Part shown: piece by piece, positions 1-33,945 of the stretch
Numbering within the stretch: the first letter of the stretch is position 1
Layout of the letters: each line of letters starts with the position of its first letter
Made by a program: the position numbers and the translations under genes
The notes under the pieces: generated by a model
Database searches by the model: none
What the model was told of the DNA's origin: nothing
Seen by the model: only the letters and a program-made list of their open reading frames with translations
From: Frankiales bacterium
GTDB lineage: Bacteria > Actinomycetota > Actinomycetes > Mycobacteriales > SCTD01
Reading direction: 5' to 3'
DNA: 34,277 nucleotides
Assembly (NCBI GenBank): GCA_025965475.1
Contig: JAOPWV010000162.1
Span: 1 to 34,277 of the forward strand

Positions 1-1119
1 CTGGCCGTCGCCGGGCCCGCCGGCGTCGGGGTCCCGGCCGTCCGGTCCGCCACCCTGCGGCCCGCCACCGCCGGGGCCGTCGCCCGGGCCCTCGTTCTCG
101 GGCCCGTCCTCGGGCTCGACCGACGACAGGGCGTCGTCCAGCGTCGACTCGTCCAGTCCGGGCGCCTCGAACGGCGTACGCCGGCGGCGGTGCGGCAGGG
201 CGAGCCGGGCCGCGGTGCGGACGTCCTCGGTGGTGACCTCGTCGCGGCCGGCCCACGCCGCGAGGGCGACCGCGGCCTTGGCGGTGACCAGGTCGGCGCG
301 CAGCCCGTCCACGTCGAACGCGGCGCAGACGGTGGTGACCTCGCGCAGCGCGTGGTCACCGAGCACGACCTTGGGCAGGTGCGCGCGGGCGTCGGCGATG
401 CGGGCGGCCAAGGCGGCGTCCTGGGCGGCGTACTCGGCGGCGAACCCGTCCGGGTCGGCCTCGTAGGCCAGCCGGCGGCGCACGACGTCCGCCCGCTCCG
501 CCGGGTCGCGGGTCGCCGCCACCTCTACCGTCAGGCCGAACCGGTCGAGCAGCTGCGGGCGCAGCTCGCCCTCCTCCGGGTTCATGGTGCCGACGAGCAG
601 GAAGCGCGCCGCGTGCCGGACCGAGACGCCCTCGCGCTCGACGTACGACGTCCCGAGGGCGGCCGCGTCGAGCAGCAGGTCGACCAGGTGGTCGTGCAGC
701 AGGTTGACCTCGTCCACGTACAGCACGCCGCGGTGCGCGGCGGCGAGCAGACCGGGCTCGTAGGCGGACACGCCCGTGGTCAGCGCCTTCTCCAGGTCGA
801 GCGAGCCGACGAGGCGGTCCTCGGAGGCGCCGACGGGCAGCTCGACGAGGCGGGCCGGACGGACGGCGGGGTCGGCATGCGTGGCCAGGTCCGGGCAGCC
901 GGGGTCTGGCGCGGCCGGGTCGCACGAGAAGCGGCAGCCCGCGAGCACCGGCACCGCCGGGAGCAGGGCCGCCAGGGCCCGGACGACGGTGGACTTGGCC
1001 GTCCCCTTCTCGCCGCGGACGAGCACTCCACCGACGGCCGGAGAGACCGCGTTGACGACGAGCGCCAGCCGCAGATCGTCCAGACCGACGACGGCGGAGA
1101 AGGGATACAGGGCGGTCAC
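1..1119 (-). CDS. Magnesium/cobalt chelatase ATPase subunit (BchI/ChlI-like AAA+), 3' end outside window
   Basis: AAA+ ATPase subunit of a class I chelatase, most likely the partner of CobN in inserting cobalt into hydrogenobyrinate diamide. The visible 373 residues begin with a GTG at 1119 preceded by a GAAGGAAG ribosome site. Seen: a Walker A of the chelatase type, GEKGTAKST, at about residues 36-44; Walker [12 protein letters not shown]; a sensor segment [23 protein letters not shown]; and then a Gly/Pro/Asp/Glu-rich tail running off the window. That tail resembles the acidic proline-rich linker between the ChlI-like and ChlD/VWA-like halves of the fused actinobacterial cobaltochelatase subunit (about 630-680 aa), so a VWA domain probably follows outside the window. 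A cobalamin riboswitch lies in its leader, which supports the cobalt rather than magnesium assignment. Confidence 0.9.
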
Positions 1120-1164
1120 GAGTGGCCTTCCTTCGGGGTCCGCGCCCCGGGTGGACGGATCGAC

Positions 1165-1300
1165 GGCCGGAGTATCTGGCTGGCTCTTGCGGACAAGAGC
1201 TCACAGTGGCGGGACCGCGCCGGCTGATCCGGCTTCCTCCCTGTCCGTCGCTTGCGCCGGGGACTCTACCGGGCTGGGTGCAGACACCCATGCGCCCGCG
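1165..1300 (-). promoter_or_regulatory. Cobalamin (B12) riboswitch
   Basis: Leader of the chelatase gene, read on the minus strand. The conserved core GCGGTCCCGCCACTGTGA (1218-1201) is preceded by GGGAGGAAGCCGG...CCGGC, the usual P3-P4 junction pattern. It is followed by a B12-box-like GAGCCAGCCAGATACTCCGG (1186-1167). The box is less exact than the core. A hairpin GGGTGTCTGCACCC near 1288-1275 may form the 5' part of the aptamer. The aptamer ends about 45 nt before the GTG start, so ligand control of translation initiation or of early termination is expected: high cobalamin should lower expression. Confidence 0.82.
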
Positions 1301-1390
1301 CCGGTGCGTCCGCCGCCGCCCGGACGGGGGCCACATCCGCGTGCGGCCCGCGGGCCGTCTCCTGGCCGCCACCTCCGGTCGGGCCGGGTA

Positions 1391-1404
1391 AGTCGCTCGC
1401 GACT
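1391..1404. promoter_or_regulatory. Inverted repeat upstream of the ABC exporter, possible operator
   Basis: AGTCGC-TC-GCGACT is a 6+6 bp inverted repeat with a 2-nt centre in the 1301-1469 gap between the riboswitch and the exporter. A weak -10-like TAGCCT follows at 1420-1425 and a strong GGAGAGGAG ribosome site at 1456-1464. DrrAB-type exporters are often controlled by TetR-family repressors binding such repeats, but no regulator gene is in view. The rest of this gap holds nothing else I can name. Confidence 0.25.
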
Positions 1405-1469
1405 GTCGACGGCCCGGCCTAGCCTGTCGGCGAACGGGGGCGACCCGCCTCCGCCGGAGAGGAGCCCAG

Positions 1470-2456
1470 GTGGCTGACGTCATCCACGCCGAAGGTCTGG
1501 TGAAGCGCTACGGCAGCCGCAGCGGCGAGGTCCGCGCCCTCGATGGACTCGACCTCGCGGTGCCGGAGGGCACGGTGCTCGGCCTGCTGGGCCCCAACGG
1601 CGCCGGCAAGACGACAGCAGTGCGCATCCTCACCACGCTGCTGGAGGCCGACGGCGGCCGGGCGACCGTGGCCGGCCTCGACGTGCGCAAGGACGCCAAG
1701 GGCGTCCGCAAGCGGATCGGGCTGTCCGGACAGTACGCCGCGGTCGACGAGTACCTCACCGGCTTCGAAAACCTCGACATGATCGGCCGGATCTACAAGC
1801 TCGGCCGCACGGCCTCCCGGGCGCGCGCCCGGGAGCTGCTGGAGCGCTTCGACCTCGTGGAGTCCGGCGACCGGCCGGTGAAGGGCTACTCCGGCGGCAT
1901 GCGGCGGCGGCTCGACCTCGCCGGCGCCCTGGTGGCTGAGCCCCCGGTCCTGTTCCTCGACGAGCCCACCACCGGTCTGGACCCCCGCAGCCGGACCGGC
2001 ATGTGGGAGGTCATCCGCGAGCTGGTCCGGGGCGGCACCACGCTGCTGCTCACCACCCAGTACCTCGAGGAGGCCGACCGCCTCGCCGACGCGATCGTCG
2101 TCATCGACAAGGGGCGGGCGATCGCGCAGGGCACGTCGGACGAGCTCAAGCGGCAGGTCGGCGGTGAGCGGATCGAGCTCGTCCTCACCGACCCGTCGCA
2201 GCTGGACAAGGCGCGCGCCGTGCTGGCCACGGTCGCCGTCTCGGACATCACCGTGGACGAGGACGGCCGGTCGCTCACCGCACCCGTGTCGGGTGGTCCG
2301 CCCGACCTGATGGAGGCGCTGCGCGGGCTCGACGCCGCCGGGATCGTGGTCAGCGACGTCGGGCTGCGCCGCCCGACCCTCGACGACGTGTTCCTCAGCC
2401 TGACCGGCCACACGACCGAGACCCCACCCCTCGACAAGCAGGAGGACGCGGCATGA
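1470..2456 (+). CDS. ABC transporter ATP-binding protein, DrrA family
   Basis: ATPase of an ABC-2 type exporter of the daunorubicin-resistance (DrrA) family, 328 aa; substrate unknown. Walker A GPNGAGKTT is at residues 41-49, the ABC signature reads YSGGMRRRLDLAGAL, Walker B is VLFLDEPTTGLD, and the H-loop region is replaced by TTQYLEEADRLAD, as is usual for DrrA (Gln in place of His). The C-terminal ~100 residues ending in RRPTLDDVFLSLTG are the DrrA-type regulatory tail. The GTG start at 1470 follows GGAGAGGAG with good spacing. The last codons overlap the permease start by 4 nt (ATGA), so the two are co-translated. It points away from the chelatase gene and separates it from cobN. Confidence 0.93.
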   Translation: MADVIHAEGLVKRYGSRSGEVRALDGLDLAVPEGTVLGLLGPNGAGKTTAVRILTTLLEADGGRATVAGLDVRKDAKGVRKRIGLSGQYAAVDEYLTGFENLDMIGRIYKLGRTASRARARELLERFDLVESGDRPVKGYSGGMRRRLDLAGALVAEPPVLFLDEPTTGLDPRSRTGMWEVIRELVRGGTTLLLTTQYLEEADRLADAIVVIDKGRAIAQGTSDELKRQVGGERIELVLTDPSQLDKARAVLATVAVSDITVDEDGRSLTAPVSGGPPDLMEALRGLDAAGIVVSDVGLRRPTLDDVFLSLTGHTTETPPLDKQEDAA

Positions 2457-3256
2457 GCGTCATGGTCGACGCACTCGGCGACGGCGCGGTCGTCGTCAAG
2501 CGCAACCTGATCAAGATCGTGCGCGTCCCCGAGCTGATGATCTTCACGCTGGTCTCGCCGATCATGTTCGTGCTGCTGTTCGCCTACGTCTTCGGCAGCG
2601 CGATCAACCTCCAGGGCACCGGCTACCGCGAGTTCCTCATCGCCGGGATCTTCGCCCAGACGGTGATCTTCGGAGCCACCTACACCGGCGCCGGCATCGC
2701 CGACGACATGAAGAAGGGCATCATCGACCGGTTCCGGTCGCTGCCCATGTCGCAGGCGGCGGTGCTCGTGGGCCGGACCGCGAGCGACGTGCTCATCAAC
2801 CTCATCAGCATCGCCGTCATGGCGGGGACCGGGCTGCTCGTCGGCTGGCGGATCCGCACCTCGTTCTGGGAAGCCGTCGCCGGCTTCCTCCTGCTGCTGT
2901 TCTTCGCCTACACCTTCTCGTGGATCATGGCCTGGGTCGGCCTGCTGGTCCCGAGCCCCGAGGTCGTCAACAACGCGGCGTTCATCGTGATCTTCCCGCT
3001 CACGTTCATCGCCAACACCTTCGTGCCCCTGGAGAACCTCCCCACCGCGCTGAAGGTGTTCGCCGAATGGAATCCGGTCTCCTCGATGACCCAGGCGACC
3101 AGGGAATTGTTCGGCAACAGCGGCGGTGTGGCCGCGACCTCGCACGCCTGGCCGATCCAGAACCCCGTGCTCTACACCGTGCTCTGGGGGCTCGTCATCC
3201 TCGCCATCTTCGTGCCGCTGTCGGTGCGCCAGTACAAGCGCGCCGCCAGCCGCTGA
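2453..3256 (+). CDS. ABC-2 type transporter permease, DrrB family
   Basis: Membrane partner of the preceding ATPase, 267 aa. It has about six hydrophobic segments: near residues 30-50, 60-80, 105-130, 140-165, 172-192 and 235-255. DrrB-family landmarks include the N-terminal segment with MIFTLVSPIMFVLLFAYVFG, the cytosolic stretch GIIDRFRSLPMSQAAVLVGR that contacts the ATPase, and the late NTFVPLENLPTALKVFAEWNP loop before the last helix. The pair is expected to export a hydrophobic small molecule or lipid; nothing nearby tells which. The stop codon lies in the arm of a hairpin shared with the convergent esterase gene. Confidence 0.92.
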   Translation: MSVMVDALGDGAVVVKRNLIKIVRVPELMIFTLVSPIMFVLLFAYVFGSAINLQGTGYREFLIAGIFAQTVIFGATYTGAGIADDMKKGIIDRFRSLPMSQAAVLVGRTASDVLINLISIAVMAGTGLLVGWRIRTSFWEAVAGFLLLLFFAYTFSWIMAWVGLLVPSPEVVNNAAFIVIFPLTFIANTFVPLENLPTALKVFAEWNPVSSMTQATRELFGNSGGVAATSHAWPIQNPVLYTVLWGLVILAIFVPLSVRQYKRAASR

Positions 3257-8389: not shown

Positions 8390-9034
8390 TCACTGCTGGT
8401 GCAGCCGCGCCGCGCGCAACTGGTTGCGCTCACGCAGCTGGAACTCGAAGACCCACTTGCGGATCGTGTCGGCCTGGCTGTGCTCGGTGAACTGCAGGGC
8501 GGCCACCTGCGTCGCCCCCCGGCTCTCCCGGGTGTCGTCCTCGCCGGCCCGGGTCCACAGGACGCGCGCCGACACGACGAATCTCTCCCCGCCGAAGGAC
8601 AGCGCGACGGTCAGCAGGTCGTCGGTGGGCAGTACGGCGGAGCCCGGCACGCGGCAGCGCATCCCACTCTCGCTGACGTCCAGCGTCGTGGCGGCGACAG
8701 CCCCGCGGTCACTGCCGGTGAGGGTCACGTCCATGACGAGCCCGGCCCGGACGTGCCGCCGGCGCTGAATGCGCTCCATCTCGCCCTGCAGCCGCAGCTC
8801 CAGCCAGCCGTTGTCGTCGATCCCGCAGAGCAGGGCCTGCACGCGGTACTCGGCCTCCGGACGGAACCAGCTGACCGTCACCGGCGGGAGCGGGTCGGCG
8901 GGCTGGTGGCCCTGCGGCACGGCCACGAGCACCGACACCTGCGAGATCACGCCCCGGACCTCGCTCTCGAAGGTCTCGTCCTCGGCAGTGACGAAACGGA
9001 CGGGAGTGCCCTTCTCCGGCATCACGTAGCTCAC
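8390..9034 (-). CDS. PilZ domain protein, YcgR-like c-di-GMP effector
   Basis: A 214-aa protein with an N-terminal YcgR-type beta domain (about residues 5-85) and a C-terminal PilZ domain (about 88-200). The two c-di-GMP-binding signatures are intact: RxxxR as R92-RHV-R96 and DxSxxG as D119-VSES-G124. YcgR proteins act as a c-di-GMP-dependent brake on the flagellar motor in enteric bacteria and Bacillus (YpfA/MotI). Its place directly after the FlhF-like gene fits such a role here. The GTG at 9034 overlaps the upstream stop slightly; an ATG at 9022 is an equally possible start and would give 210 aa. Confidence 0.85.
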   Translation of the reverse strand: MSYVMPEKGTPVRFVTAEDETFESEVRGVISQVSVLVAVPQGHQPADPLPPVTVSWFRPEAEYRVQALLCGIDDNGWLELRLQGEMERIQRRRHVRAGLVMDVTLTGSDRGAVAATTLDVSESGMRCRVPGSAVLPTDDLLTVALSFGGERFVVSARVLWTRAGEDDTRESRGATQVAALQFTEHSQADTIRKWVFEFQLRERNQLRAARLHQQ

Positions 9035-9038
9035 GACG

Positions 9039-10775
9039 TCACTCTGCCAGGCGGTCCGTGATGATGGCCGCCCAGAGCTGCGCACTGGACCTGCGGCCGT
9101 CGACCATGCCCACCGGTATGGTGCCGGTCAGGATCGCCGCCGGGTCGAGGGTGGCCTCCAGCCCGTCCACGGCGAGTGCGTCGATCTGACCGACACGCTC
9201 CGCCCACGCGCCGATGTCGGCGACCTTGGTGGTGGCGGACACCGCGCCCCACACGAACGTCGGTGCCAGCGCCGACAGGGCGGACTTGGCCCAGCCGGCC
9301 GGCCGGAGCAGCAGAGGCGCGTCGACCACGACGATCGTGCCGTGCGGGCGCTTCGCCCATCGGGCGCGGCGGACCGCCAGGTCCCCCGGCTTGGACAGCC
9401 GCCGGGCGGCCGGGAACTTCATCGTGTTGCTGTGCGGGCTCGCGAAGAACACCGACGACTCGTCCATGCCGAGTTCGTCGGCCAGGTCGACGGCGGTGCG
9501 CAGCGCACGCTCCGGCTCACCGACGACGGCGAGGACCTGGCCGGGCGAGTACGCCGGCGGAGGTACGGCGGGCAGCGCGCGGAGCCAGCGCAGCAGCGCC
9601 ACGTAGGCATCGCCGTCGACGAAGCCCGCCTCGCCGGGTGCCAGCAGGTCCGCCGGCAGGCCACCGACGAGCTTGCTTCCGCCCCGCTTCGCGAGCTGCT
9701 TGGACGGGCGGGTGGCGAGCTCCTTGCCGGGCAGGGTGGCCGCCCGCTTCGCCGGCTGCTTGGCAGCGCGCTTGGCGGGCTGCTTGGCCGCACGCTTGGC
9801 CGGCCCCTTCGCGGCAGTCGCGCCGGCACCCGCACTGGCCAGGTCGGGCTCCATATCGGCGGCGGCCTCCTGCTGCAAGCGGGCGAGAACCTCGGAGAAC
9901 GACGCCGTCTCCGTGGACAGGTCCGGCCGCTCACCCTCCCGGGGCAGGGCCACTCCGCCGAGCTCCTGCTCGTTCAGGCTGTCGGCGAGGTCGAGCACGG
10001 ACCGGAGCGGCCGGTCGTCGGTCGCCGGCTCGACCGGCCGGGTCGGCACAGTCGGGTCAGCCGACACCGTCGGCTCGGCGCGCTTCCGGGTGGCCGGCTT
10101 CGCGGCGCGGGTGCCGGTGGTGGTGTCTGCCCGGGCGGCGCCGGTCGCGGCAGTTCCGGTCGTGGCGGGGCCGACCTCAGCCGCGAGCGCATCGGACCGA
10201 GGGAGCTCCACGGGGGCCGTGTGGGCGATGGGGGCCATGGACTCCTCGGCGGCACCGGTCGCGGCAGCGCCCGTCGTGGTCGCGGACCTGGCCGAGCGCG
10301 CGCCGGAGCGTGCGGAGGCCCAGCGGGCGGACACCGATCGGGCAGGTGCGGCCGGCTTCCCGGGCCTGGTCTGGTTCGCGGGGCGGTCGTCCGCTGTCGC
10401 CGGACCGGTGACGCGGTCGACCGCTGCCGGTTCGGCGGCGCCCTCGGCGTACGCCCGCCTAGCGGTGCCGGGCCGGGCGATGGTGGGGCCGGGATCCGGG
10501 GCGGGCGATGGCGCCGACGGGGCCGTCGCCTTGGCCGCCCGGGCCCCGGCGGCCGGGCTCTGGGCACGGCCGCCGCGTACGGCGGGGGCGCCGGTCAGCT
10601 CGTCGTCGATCTCCACGTCGATCTGGAAGTGCTCACGGGCGAAGAAACCGCCCAGGCCACCGGAGCGCACCTTCTCGGCCTGCAGGATCCGGGCGCCTTC
10701 GCCGTACTGCCTACGGACCTGAGCCAGCAGGTCCTCCAGGTTCGGACCCTCAAGCTGCAGTCGCGTGGACGGCAT
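9039..10775 (-). CDS. flhF: FlhF-like protein with degenerate GTPase domain
   Basis: A 578-aa homologue of the SRP-type GTPase FlhF, which sets flagellar position and number. Residues 1-58 match the FlhF N-terminus (PNLEDLLAQVRRQYGEGARIL...FFAREHFQIDVEID). Residues 60-370 are a long low-complexity Ala/Thr/Pro/Lys linker. Residues 412-575 align with the FlhF G domain but lack its key motifs. The P-loop position reads VVGEPERALRTAVD where GxTGVGKTT is expected, the DTAGR position reads DAPLLLRP, and no TKLDE-like G4 is visible. The FlhF landmark VSATTKVAD (512-520) is kept, so the homology is real. The ATG at 10775 follows GGGAG and overlaps flhA by 26 nt. No flhG follows. It is probably unable to hydrolyse GTP and may be a structural pseudo-GTPase. 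Confidence 0.85.
   Translation of the reverse strand: MPSTRLQLEGPNLEDLLAQVRRQYGEGARILQAEKVRSGGLGGFFAREHFQIDVEIDDELTGAPAVRGGRAQSPAAGARAAKATAPSAPSPAPDPGPTIARPGTARRAYAEGAAEPAAVDRVTGPATADDRPANQTRPGKPAAPARSVSARWASARSGARSARSATTTGAAATGAAEESMAPIAHTAPVELPRSDALAAEVGPATTGTAATGAARADTTTGTRAAKPATRKRAEPTVSADPTVPTRPVEPATDDRPLRSVLDLADSLNEQELGGVALPREGERPDLSTETASFSEVLARLQQEAAADMEPDLASAGAGATAAKGPAKRAAKQPAKRAAKQPAKRAATLPGKELATRPSKQLAKRGGSKLVGGLPADLLAPGEAGFVDGDAYVALLRWLRALPAVPPPAYSPGQVLAVVGEPERALRTAVDLADELGMDESSVFFASPHSNTMKFPAARRLSKPGDLAVRRARWAKRPHGTIVVVDAPLLLRPAGWAKSALSALAPTFVWGAVSATTKVADIGAWAERVGQIDALAVDGLEATLDPAAILTGTIPVGMVDGRRSSAQLWAAIITDRLAE
9738..9809 (-). repeat. 24-nt in-frame tandem repeat in the FlhF-like gene
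   Basis: Three consecutive copies of an 8-residue unit of the form K(Q/G)PAKRAA at residues 323-346, followed by looser copies to about 364. It makes a basic, histone-H1-like stretch at the end of the linker. The DNA copies are imperfect. Confidence 0.7.
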
Positions 10776-31069: not shown

Positions 31070-33496
31070 ATGACAGAGCTAGACGACGAGATCGTCCAGG
31101 AGTTTCTCGTGGAGAGCCACGAGAACCTCGACCAGCTCGACCGTGACCTCGTCGCGCTCGAGCGCGAGCCGGCTTCCCGGGAGCTGCTCGGTAGCGTCTT
31201 CCGGACCATCCACACCATCAAGGGGACGAGCGGCTTCCTCGCGCTTCACCAGCTCGAGTCGGTGAGCCACGTGGGCGAGAACCTGCTGAGCCGCCTCCGG
31301 GACGGCGTCCTCACCCTGGACACCGAGCGCGCCGCCGCGCTGCTCGACCTCGTCGATGCGGTCCGCGCCATTCTGGGGTGCCTGGAGACGACCGGCGCCG
31401 AGGGCACCCACGACCTGGCCGAGCTGACCGCGCGCCTCGCCAGCCTCCTGGAGCCCGACGCGGCGGGCGCCGCCGCTCCGGTCTCCGCTGTTGCCGCGGC
31501 CGCCGCGGTGGCGGCTGCGGTGGTCGCGGCTCCCGGAGCAGCCACCGAGGCCGCGTCCCCCGCATCCGCCGCGCCCCCCGAGGCCGCCCTCCCGATCCAG
31601 CCGGAGCACGAACTGCTCGGCGAGATCCTGCTCGAACACGGCACCGTCTCGCCGTCCTCGGTCGAGGCCGCGCTGCTGGAGCAGCAGGTCGCCGGCGACG
31701 AGAGGCCGATCGGCGAGATCCTCGTCGACCACGGCGCCGTCAGCGAGAAGCAGGTCTCCGAGGCTCTCGAGACGCAGAGCGAGGGTCGGCGCAGCGTCGC
31801 CGACAGCACCATCCGCGTCGACGTGGATCTGCTCGACGCGCTCATGCGACAGGTCGGCGAGCTCGTCCTGACGCGCAACCAGGTCGTCTCCCAGGCGGCG
31901 ACGCTGCGCGACACGAACCTGCTGCGCGCGGCCCAGCGGCTGAACCTCATCGCCAGTGAGCTGCAGGAGGGTGTCATGAAGACGCGCATGCAGCCCATCG
32001 GCAACGTCTGGGCCAAGCTCCCGCGCATCGTCCGCGACCTCGGGGTGGCCTGCAACCGGCAGGTCCGCCTGGAGATGGAGGGTGCGGAGACCGAGCTCGA
32101 CAAGACGCTGCTCGAGGCGGTCAAGGATCCGCTGACCCACCTGGTCCGCAACGCGGTCGACCACGGCATCGAAACCGCCGAGGACCGTCTCGCCGCCGGC
32201 AAGCCGGCCGAGGGCGTCCTCACGCTCCGCGCGTTCCACGAGAGCGGCCAGGTCAACATCGAGATCCGCGACGACGGCCAGGGCATCGACCCGGCCCGGG
32301 TGGGCGCCAAGGCGCTCGAGCGCGGCCTCGTCACGCGTGACCAGCTCGCCGTCATGTCGACGCCGGAGATCGTCAACATGATCTTCCTGCCTGGCTTCTC
32401 GACGGCTGCCGCCGTGACGAACGTGTCCGGCCGCGGCGTCGGCATGGACGTCGTACGGACGAACATCGAGAAGATCGGTGGCACCGTCGACGTCGCCAGC
32501 GTGCCTGGCAGGGGCAGCACCATCCGGATCAAGATCCCGCTGACGCTGGCGATCATCCCGGCCGTCACCTTCCAGTGCGCCGGCGAGCGCTACGCGATCC
32601 CCCAGGTCGCACTCGTCGAGCTGGTGTCCCTGGACGCCGAGGAGGCCCAGAAGGGCATCGAGTGGGTCTCCGAGGCGCCCGTCTACCGGCTGCGCGGACG
32701 CCTGCTCCCCCTCGTCTACCTCGACGCGGTGCTGGGCCTCAGCGCCGAGGACGGCACCCGGCAGCCGCGTGAGTCGCTGTCCCTCGTCGTCCTGCAGGCC
32801 GACGGCCGGCAGTTCGGCCTGGTCGTCGACCGCGTCCTCGACAGCGAGGAGATCGTCGTCAAGCCGCTCGGGCGCCAGCTCAAGGGCATCGGCATCTACT
32901 CGGGCGCCACGATCACCGGGGACGGCGCGGTCGCCCTCATCCTCGACGTGCTCAACGTCGGCCTGCAGTCGGGCGTGCTCAGCGCGTCGCGCGACCGGGC
33001 CTTCACCGACGCGTCGGTGGTCGCCGCCGTGGAGGAGCGCGAGTCGCTGCTCCTCGTCGGCGTCGGCGAGGACCGGCGCATGTCGATCCCGCTGGGGATG
33101 GTCACACGGCTCGAGGAGTTCGCCGTCTCCGCGATCGAGCGGGTGGGCAGTCGCGAGGTCGTCCAGTACCGCGGCCAGATCCTGCCGCTCGTCCGCCTGG
33201 CCAGTCACCTCGGCAACTACTCCGACCCGGACCGCGAACGCGTCCAGGTCGTCGTGCACGCCGAGGGCGGCCGCAGCGTCGGGCTGCTCGTGGAAGCGAT
33301 CCACGACATCACCGAGGAATCGGTGACCGGCCGCAGCGACCTGGACAGCACCGGGCTGCTCGGCTCGGCGATCGTCGACAACCGGGTCACCGAGATGCTG
33401 GATGTGCGCAGCGCCGTGCTGGCCGCAGATCCGAACTTCTTCCGTAACGCACCGGTGGAACAGCCGGCCTTCGAGATGAGCGGGGCGTACTCCTGA
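31070..33496 (+). CDS. cheA: Chemotaxis histidine kinase CheA with MshEN-like insert and two CheW-like domains
   Basis: An 808-aa CheA. The HPt domain (1-105) has phospho-acceptor His48 in IHTIKGTSGF. An Ala-rich linker spans 131-172. Residues 182-236 hold two related 24-residue units, LLGEILLEHGTVSPSSVEAALLEQ-type and PIGEILVDHGAVSEKQVSEALETQ-type, 7 residues apart, where the CheY-binding P2 is normally found. P3 dimerisation runs about 247-305. The P4 ATPase has HLVRNAVDHGIE (N box), DDGQGID (G1) and NVSGRGVGMDVV (G2), so it should be active. P5 (about 495-640) is CheW-like, and a second CheW-like domain follows (about 655-785). AGGAG precedes the ATG. The stop overlaps the cheW start (TGATG). 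Confidence 0.95.
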   Translation: MTELDDEIVQEFLVESHENLDQLDRDLVALEREPASRELLGSVFRTIHTIKGTSGFLALHQLESVSHVGENLLSRLRDGVLTLDTERAAALLDLVDAVRAILGCLETTGAEGTHDLAELTARLASLLEPDAAGAAAPVSAVAAAAAVAAAVVAAPGAATEAASPASAAPPEAALPIQPEHELLGEILLEHGTVSPSSVEAALLEQQVAGDERPIGEILVDHGAVSEKQVSEALETQSEGRRSVADSTIRVDVDLLDALMRQVGELVLTRNQVVSQAATLRDTNLLRAAQRLNLIASELQEGVMKTRMQPIGNVWAKLPRIVRDLGVACNRQVRLEMEGAETELDKTLLEAVKDPLTHLVRNAVDHGIETAEDRLAAGKPAEGVLTLRAFHESGQVNIEIRDDGQGIDPARVGAKALERGLVTRDQLAVMSTPEIVNMIFLPGFSTAAAVTNVSGRGVGMDVVRTNIEKIGGTVDVASVPGRGSTIRIKIPLTLAIIPAVTFQCAGERYAIPQVALVELVSLDAEEAQKGIEWVSEAPVYRLRGRLLPLVYLDAVLGLSAEDGTRQPRESLSLVVLQADGRQFGLVVDRVLDSEEIVVKPLGRQLKGIGIYSGATITGDGAVALILDVLNVGLQSGVLSASRDRAFTDASVVAAVEERESLLLVGVGEDRRMSIPLGMVTRLEEFAVSAIERVGSREVVQYRGQILPLVRLASHLGNYSDPDRERVQVVVHAEGGRSVGLLVEAIHDITEESVTGRSDLDSTGLLGSAIVDNRVTEMLDVRSAVLAADPNFFRNAPVEQPAFEMSGAYS

Positions 33497-33945
33497 TGTC
33501 GAGCACCACGACGACCATGAACCAGTTCTCCACCTTCCGCGTGGCCGACCAGCTGTTCGGTGTCGACGTCGGCCGGGTGCAGGAGGTGATCAGGTACCAG
33601 CCGATGACGCCGGTCCCGATGGCCCGCCCGGCCGTCGCCGGCCTGATCAACCTGCGCGGCCAGGTCGTCACCGCGGTGGACCTGCGGGTGCAGCTCGGTC
33701 TGCCCCCGCGCGCCGAGGGCGAGCTCCCGCTGAACGTCGTCGTCCGCACCGGCGAGGAGGCGGTCAGCCTCCTCGTCGACTCGATCGGCGACGTGGTCGA
33801 CACGACCGGCGACCTGTTCGAGGCCCCGCCGGAGACGGTCTCGGGCCCGGCCCGCGAGCTCATCAGCGGTGCCTACAAGCTCGAGGGCAAGCTCCTGCTC
33901 GCGCTCGACGTCGACCGTGCTGTGGACGTTGACCGCACCAGCTGA
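33496..33945 (+). CDS. cheW: Chemotaxis coupling protein CheW
   Basis: A 149-aa adaptor linking receptors to CheA. CheW landmarks: FSTFRVADQLFGVDVGRVQEVIRYQPMTPVPMARPAVAGLINLRGQVVTAVDLRVQLGLP, then VSLLVDSIGDVVD. It is translationally coupled to cheA. The final codons (DRTS, stop) are the first unit of a 13-nt tandem repeat that continues past the stop. No receptor, cheY, cheB or cheR is in the window. Confidence 0.96.
   Translation: MSSTTTTMNQFSTFRVADQLFGVDVGRVQEVIRYQPMTPVPMARPAVAGLINLRGQVVTAVDLRVQLGLPPRAEGELPLNVVVRTGEEAVSLLVDSIGDVVDTTGDLFEAPPETVSGPARELISGAYKLEGKLLLALDVDRAVDVDRTS

Follow-up and report, generated by a model that had tools for sequence, protein, structure and literature searches.

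c-di-GMP slows or redirects swimming through motor brakes, CheY-like proteins, PilZ adaptors and receptors. Here we describe a CheA that this settle-down messenger may target directly, so that the steering enzyme of swimming would itself receive the signal. A c-di-GMP-binding domain in CheA would put control at the central kinase, one purifiable and assayable polypeptide. In described systems, c-di-GMP acts on the chemotaxis pathway at other proteins: the CheY-like regulators of Caulobacter, through which it reaches the chemotaxis and flagellar pathway, are motor regulators (PMC5677366), and the PilZ protein Cbp1 is a chemoreceptor (PMC6454048); none of these is a CheA. ShkA, a hybrid histidine kinase of Caulobacter, is bound and stimulated directly by c-di-GMP (PMC7010744). 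ShkA thus provides a precedent for direct control of a histidine kinase by c-di-GMP, albeit through another domain: it binds the nucleotide via a pseudo-receiver domain rather than MshEN, and is not a chemotaxis kinase (PMC7010744).

The MshEN domain of Vibrio cholerae MshE (PDB 5htl) shares with the CheA described below two 24-residue units, each with Gly3, Leu6, Gly10 and Gln24, and a four-helix bundle. By contrast, MshE has Arg1, Leu17, a 5-residue spacer and a C-terminal beta subdomain, and is a pilus ATPase, not a kinase. The isolated N-terminal half, MshEN_N, binds c-di-GMP at 0.35 μM without MshEN_C; mutating any one conserved hydrophobic residue of MshE costs more than tenfold; and XpsE, a non-binder, carries changes at Gly3, positions 11, 17 and 21, Gln24 and Arg1 of unit II (PMC5013675). 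In PilF of Thermus thermophilus, the GSPII-B domain binds with a KD of 6 nM and has Lys and Leu, neither of them Arg, at position 1, and the authors accordingly widened the consensus to (R/K/L)LG (PMC11731258). GSPII-C of the same protein, in which motif II begins with Pro, binds c-di-GMP at 324-460 nM (PMC11731258).

An association of MshEN with CheA was listed by Wang et al. in 2016, in one clause and Supplementary Table 4 (PMC5013675). The passages of that paper that we found contain no test of binding by, or of an effect of, MshEN-CheA (PMC5013675). Our search of the open-access literature, with subscription journals outside its scope, returned no paper describing a CheA that itself binds c-di-GMP. 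The CheA described here is therefore a well-supported member of the kind listed in 2016, to which we add a P2-less family, the occurrence of MshEN_N alone and its fixed place beside P3.

Domain architecture of the window CheA

The window, a stretch of 34,277 nucleotides from a Frankiales bacterium, encodes a protein in which Pfam recognized Hpt, dimerisation, HATPase and CheW-like domains in CheA order (Table 1). No Pfam P2 match was obtained between P1 and P3, and the P2 model PF07194, which matches Bacillus subtilis and Thermotoga maritima controls, found nothing in the organism's own genome. The window CheA is the sole H-kinase_dim protein found in this 3.9 Mb genome. The flagellar genes fliG, fliF, fliH, fliI, flgE, flhA and flhB lie upstream of cheA on the opposite strand, which makes it very probably the flagellar chemotaxis kinase. 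The cheA-cheW order recurs in nearly all carriers of the insert that were checked.

Table 1. Features of cheA and the adjacent gene, in positions of the window
Feature	CheA residues	Positions	Strand	Remarks
cheA ORF: P1 (Hpt), linker, MshEN_N, P3, P4, two CheW-like domains	808 aa	31070..33496	+	
P1 (Hpt)	7-100	31088..31369	+	Pfam PF01627
Ala/Pro-rich low-complexity linker, P1 to insert	126-181	31445..31612	+	Length and sequence differ among relatives
MshEN unit I	182-205	31613..31684	+	Leu182 (position 1), Gly184 (3), Gly191 (10), Val198 (17), Leu202 (21), Gln205 (24)
Spacer QVAGDER, 7 residues	206-212	31685..31705	+	GDxR signature common to most CheA inserts
MshEN unit II	213-236	31706..31777	+	Pro213 (position 1), Gly215 (3), Gly222 (10), Val229 (17), Leu233 (21), Gln236 (24)
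Short hinge to P3	237-245	31778..31804	+	~8 loop residues in model
P3 dimerisation domain (H-kinase_dim)	246-305	31805..31984	+	Pfam PF02895
P4 (HATPase_c)	352-492	32123..32545	+	Pfam PF02518
First CheW-like domain (P5); second at residues ~655-790	498-628	32561..32953	+	Pfam PF01584, two stretches
cheW		33496..33945	+	Directly 3' of cheA

The flagellar cluster also encodes a PilZ protein (8390-9085, minus strand) whose RxxxR (RRRHVR) and DxSxxG (DVSESG) motifs are intact and which is likely to be a second c-di-GMP input to the same flagellum. This gene had initially been placed in the same regulon as cheA; the two share only the flagellar cluster.

Identity of the insert

The insert in the P1-P3 linker comprises unit I, LLGEILLEHGTVSPSSVEAALLEQ, and unit II, PIGEILVDHGAVSEKQVSEALETQ, which are identical at 12 of their 24 positions. 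The NCBIfam model NF053729 ('cyclic di-GMP-binding domain-containing protein, MshE-related') matched CheA residues 183-236 above its threshold (52.1 bits, E 4e-14; cut-off 38). An independent profile built solely from PilB-type proteins matched the insert with E 1e-16, and its closest PDB sequence was Thermus PilF (E 4e-14). As judged from these scores, the twin-repeat match is far above chance. A match to the twin motif was likewise obtained for 27 of 27 CheA inserts at E<=0.001.

The Pfam MshEN model, PF05157, did not match the window CheA. This model describes the C-terminal beta subdomain: in a control with the PilB of the same genome, it matched residues 55-140 and missed the 53-residue motif segment. 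We therefore rejected the silence of Pfam on the insert as evidence against MshEN. Together with the positive motif profiles, and in agreement with the modelled fold below, this silence indicates that the insert is MshEN_N: of the N-terminal domain of MshE/PilB it has the four-helix, c-di-GMP-binding-type half but not MshEN_C. DUF4388 was considered as a better name and discarded: its match (E 0.0008) fell below the cut-off, and the true MshEN segment of PilB matches DUF4388 equally weakly.

The first-pass annotation had described an MshEN-like twin repeat here, and its coordinates, residues, two 24-residue units and 7-residue spacer proved exact. It was also correct that the canonical leading Arg is replaced by Leu182 and Pro213, that the units resemble MshEN and that no P2 is recognizable. 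Checks it had proposed bore this out: the NCBIfam profile recognizes the insert, the predicted fold matches that of MshEN, and a survey of CheAs recovered the insert in related proteins.

As a separate observation, PF05157 run against PilB (L001:1-1659, minus strand) does not cover the twin motif that binds c-di-GMP; surveys relying on this model will therefore overlook motif-only fusions like the window CheA.

Predicted fold of the insert

An AlphaFold2 model calculated from the window insert and 26 natural relatives was a four-helix bundle with a core pLDDT of 82-89; such a model reaches the fold only, ligand and dimer being outside its scope. The top Foldseek rows were structures of PilF GSPII-B and MshE, nearly all of them c-di-GMP-bound, which superimposed with an RMSD of 0.9-1.2 Å, the top rows at about 1.2 Å over 51-56 columns. 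A second aligner gave Z values of 8.1-8.8 for the best PilF and MshE structures; alone, these values would be middling for a helical bundle, but the sequence evidence points the same way. The complexes of the Xanthomonas PilB N-domain with PilZ (7lko and 7lkn) also matched, with a Z of 7.2 and 12-18% identity. No P2-type fold was among the matches listed, although absence there is no proof. In a first model, the insert ran into P3 as an unbroken helix. We discarded this feature, as a longer model of insert plus P3 places ~8 loop residues between the two.

Distribution and conservation among related CheAs

To place the insert among its relatives, we scanned one genome per species across 84,980 species, which yielded 80 related CheA loci; the scan retains the nearest relatives, and its counts are not frequencies for all CheAs. 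Twenty-six of the 80 loci, from 25 genomes, contained the insert. The carriers belong to Planctomycetota, Acidobacteriota, Gemmatimonadota, Actinomycetota and Armatimonadota, with one unclassified, so that the insert spans CheAs of at least five phyla. The other 54 loci have a low-complexity linker or other motif-free sequence. Pfam detected P2 in none of 81 CheAs, the window protein and its 80 relatives. This P2-less family thus has either the insert or a bare linker, and the insert did not replace P2 in this lineage. The proposal that it stands in place of P2 was accordingly abandoned, since close relatives that lack the insert are P2-less too.

Mapped onto a kinase-core tree, presence and absence of the insert require 11 changes of state, at least two of them falling on well-supported branches; the insert has thus probably been gained or lost repeatedly. 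The P1-P3 linkers of three insert-free loci (L049, L060 and L062) contain sequences, such as RRIGESPFGERKPRDVVEPAEVQ and IGESSFVF, that look like what is left of a degraded unit; in these lines the insert would then have been lost, not gained.

In the full-length alignment of the carriers, the invariant insert columns are Gly184, Leu187, Ala201, Gln205, Gly215 and Leu218. Across the 27 CheA inserts, Gly3 and Gln24 are invariant in unit I and occur in 26 and 25 of the 27, respectively, in unit II. The mean entropy of the contact positions (2, 3, 17, 21 and 24) is 0.88 bits, versus 1.99 elsewhere in the insert (permutation p 0.001). The geometry is conserved on one side only. In the carriers, 10-16 residues, and nearly always 11 or 12, separate the insert from P3, whereas its distance from the histidine motif of Hpt varies from 105 to 154. 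It is therefore P3, and not P1, to which the insert is tied.

A search with a shorter query over 60 relatives showed that the insert is retained in all three CheAs found in the same family and absent from the CheAs found in other families of the order. Within the family, the insert is 35-47% identical, as compared to 60-78% for P3/P4, and is thus the faster-evolving part; two of the same-family inserts score below the NCBIfam cut-off, at 26 and 33 bits. Twenty motif-containing frames of the same class (~680-1060 aa) were inspected as further CheAs; none is a CheA.

c-di-GMP in the carrier genomes

The genome of the window contains 35 GGDEF matches, two PilZ proteins and two proteins with the MshEN motif, PilB and the window CheA. 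GGDEF domains occur in every carrier genome examined (25 of 25), versus 32 of 40 non-carriers (Fisher 0.019), the latter representing 40 of the 54 non-carrier loci. On the tree, this association reduces to two independent pairs and is not significant once phylogeny is considered. We therefore rejected the link between insert and GGDEF as evidence on its own; it is merely consistent with a role of c-di-GMP.

Ligand-contact residues

Both units of the window insert have Gly at positions 3 and 10, Gln at position 24, Leu at position 21 and Val at position 17 (Table 1). Val17 is also found in most CheA inserts and in unit II of GSPII-C; MshE has Leu there. Among the positions changed in XpsE, 3, 21 and 24 still carry Gly, Leu and Gln in each unit of the insert, and position 17 is still hydrophobic. 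Gly3 and Gln24, intact here, are among the residues lost by both XpsE and GSPII-A. At position 1, Leu182 fits the extended consensus (Arg/Lys/Leu) and Pro213 lies outside it; the PilB of the same genome has Gln and Ser at this position. Position 11, hydrophobic in the consensus, is Thr or Ala.

The first-pass annotation had considered binding uncertain because both units lack the leading Arg and the spacer has 7 residues. Both features are real, and both have measured counter-examples in PilF that weaken them as objections. GSPII-B, like the window insert, has no Arg at position 1 of either unit. GSPII-C, the closest PDB sequence, shares the 7-residue spacer and, in its unit II (PLGEILVELGLARPEDVEEALQKQ), Pro1 and Val17, according to the PDB sequence alignment; it has a third motif, so which pair binds in GSPII-C is not certain. 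The two PilF domains differ from the CheA insert in their traffic ATPase context and in the presence of the C-terminal subdomain. The doubts that remain from the residues themselves are Val17 in both units and the non-consensus position 11. Overall, we consider it probable that the insert binds c-di-GMP.

Proposed role of the insert and alternatives

The best explanation overall, to which we assign a probability of roughly 0.6, is that MshEN_N serves as a c-di-GMP input that tunes the output of CheA. The idea of such an input to the chemotaxis kinase, raised in the first-pass annotation, is plausible. One c-di-GMP would bind between the two units of the insert, which a short hinge of constrained length connects to the P3 dimerisation helices. 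Binding would stiffen or reorient the bundle where it adjoins the N-terminus of P3. Access of P1 to the P4 kinase core, or signalling by the P3/P4 core, would change as a result and CheY phosphorylation would be altered, so that c-di-GMP would directly tune CheA output and flagellar switching. The model predicts no sign for this change. An effect of the insert on kinase activity is favoured, somewhat less strongly than binding. In its broadest form, the proposal would make these proteins a widespread P2-less flagellar CheA subfamily gated directly by c-di-GMP through MshEN_N beside P3, with the gain or bias of chemotaxis set at the kinase, upstream of CheY and independently of PilZ proteins; we consider the chances of this to be about even.

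The insert could instead be a degenerate MshEN_N that has lost c-di-GMP binding and docks a protein, for example PilZ, CheY or a localisation partner, in the manner of the Xanthomonas PilB N-domain with PilZ. The match to 7lko and 7lkn fits this explanation, as such PilBs bind no c-di-GMP, and so do the intact PilZ protein of the same cluster and the departures from consensus at positions 1 and 11. However, the ligand-serving Gly3 and Gln24, lost in XpsE and GSPII-A, are among the most conserved positions of the CheA inserts, and ligand-bound domains head the structural matches, above Xanthomonas PilB. A docking role of this kind therefore seems unlikely. Another alternative, in which the insert stands in for P2 and docks CheY near P1 to speed phosphotransfer with no role for c-di-GMP, strikes us as highly improbable. 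The insert does occupy the P1-P3 linker, where other CheAs have P2, and no P2 is present. Yet two thirds of the related loci have neither P2 nor the insert, so the family manages there without a docking domain; moreover, the insert keeps its distance from P3, not P1, and the fold matches listed include no P2-like structure, for what their silence is worth.

The insert might also be a passive spacer, or a disappearing relic with no present function. Its patchy distribution, with 11 state changes of which at least two are well supported, would be expected of such a sequence, as would its evolving faster than the kinase core and the Ala at contact position 21 in some carriers; that many CheA relatives lack the insert likewise speaks against a c-di-GMP input. 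Against this, the contact residues of the insert are preserved both within the family and across five phyla, although the sequence of the linker around it cannot be aligned. We thus judge a functionless insert to be very unlikely, and retain a c-di-GMP input as the preferred reading.

Divergent inserts

In four carrier loci, mostly from Nitriliruptoraceae (L045, L050, L076 and L089), contact position 21 of unit I is Ala. Judging from this substitution, binding may be weakened in these proteins.

In the same order as the window, L156 (positions 1010-3217) and L157 encode a divergent class of CheA that is ~40% identical to the window CheA. These proteins, too, have MshEN units immediately ahead of P3; the spacer is 11 residues long and unit II begins with Pro. 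From its sequence features, this class is possibly a second fusion of CheA and MshEN.
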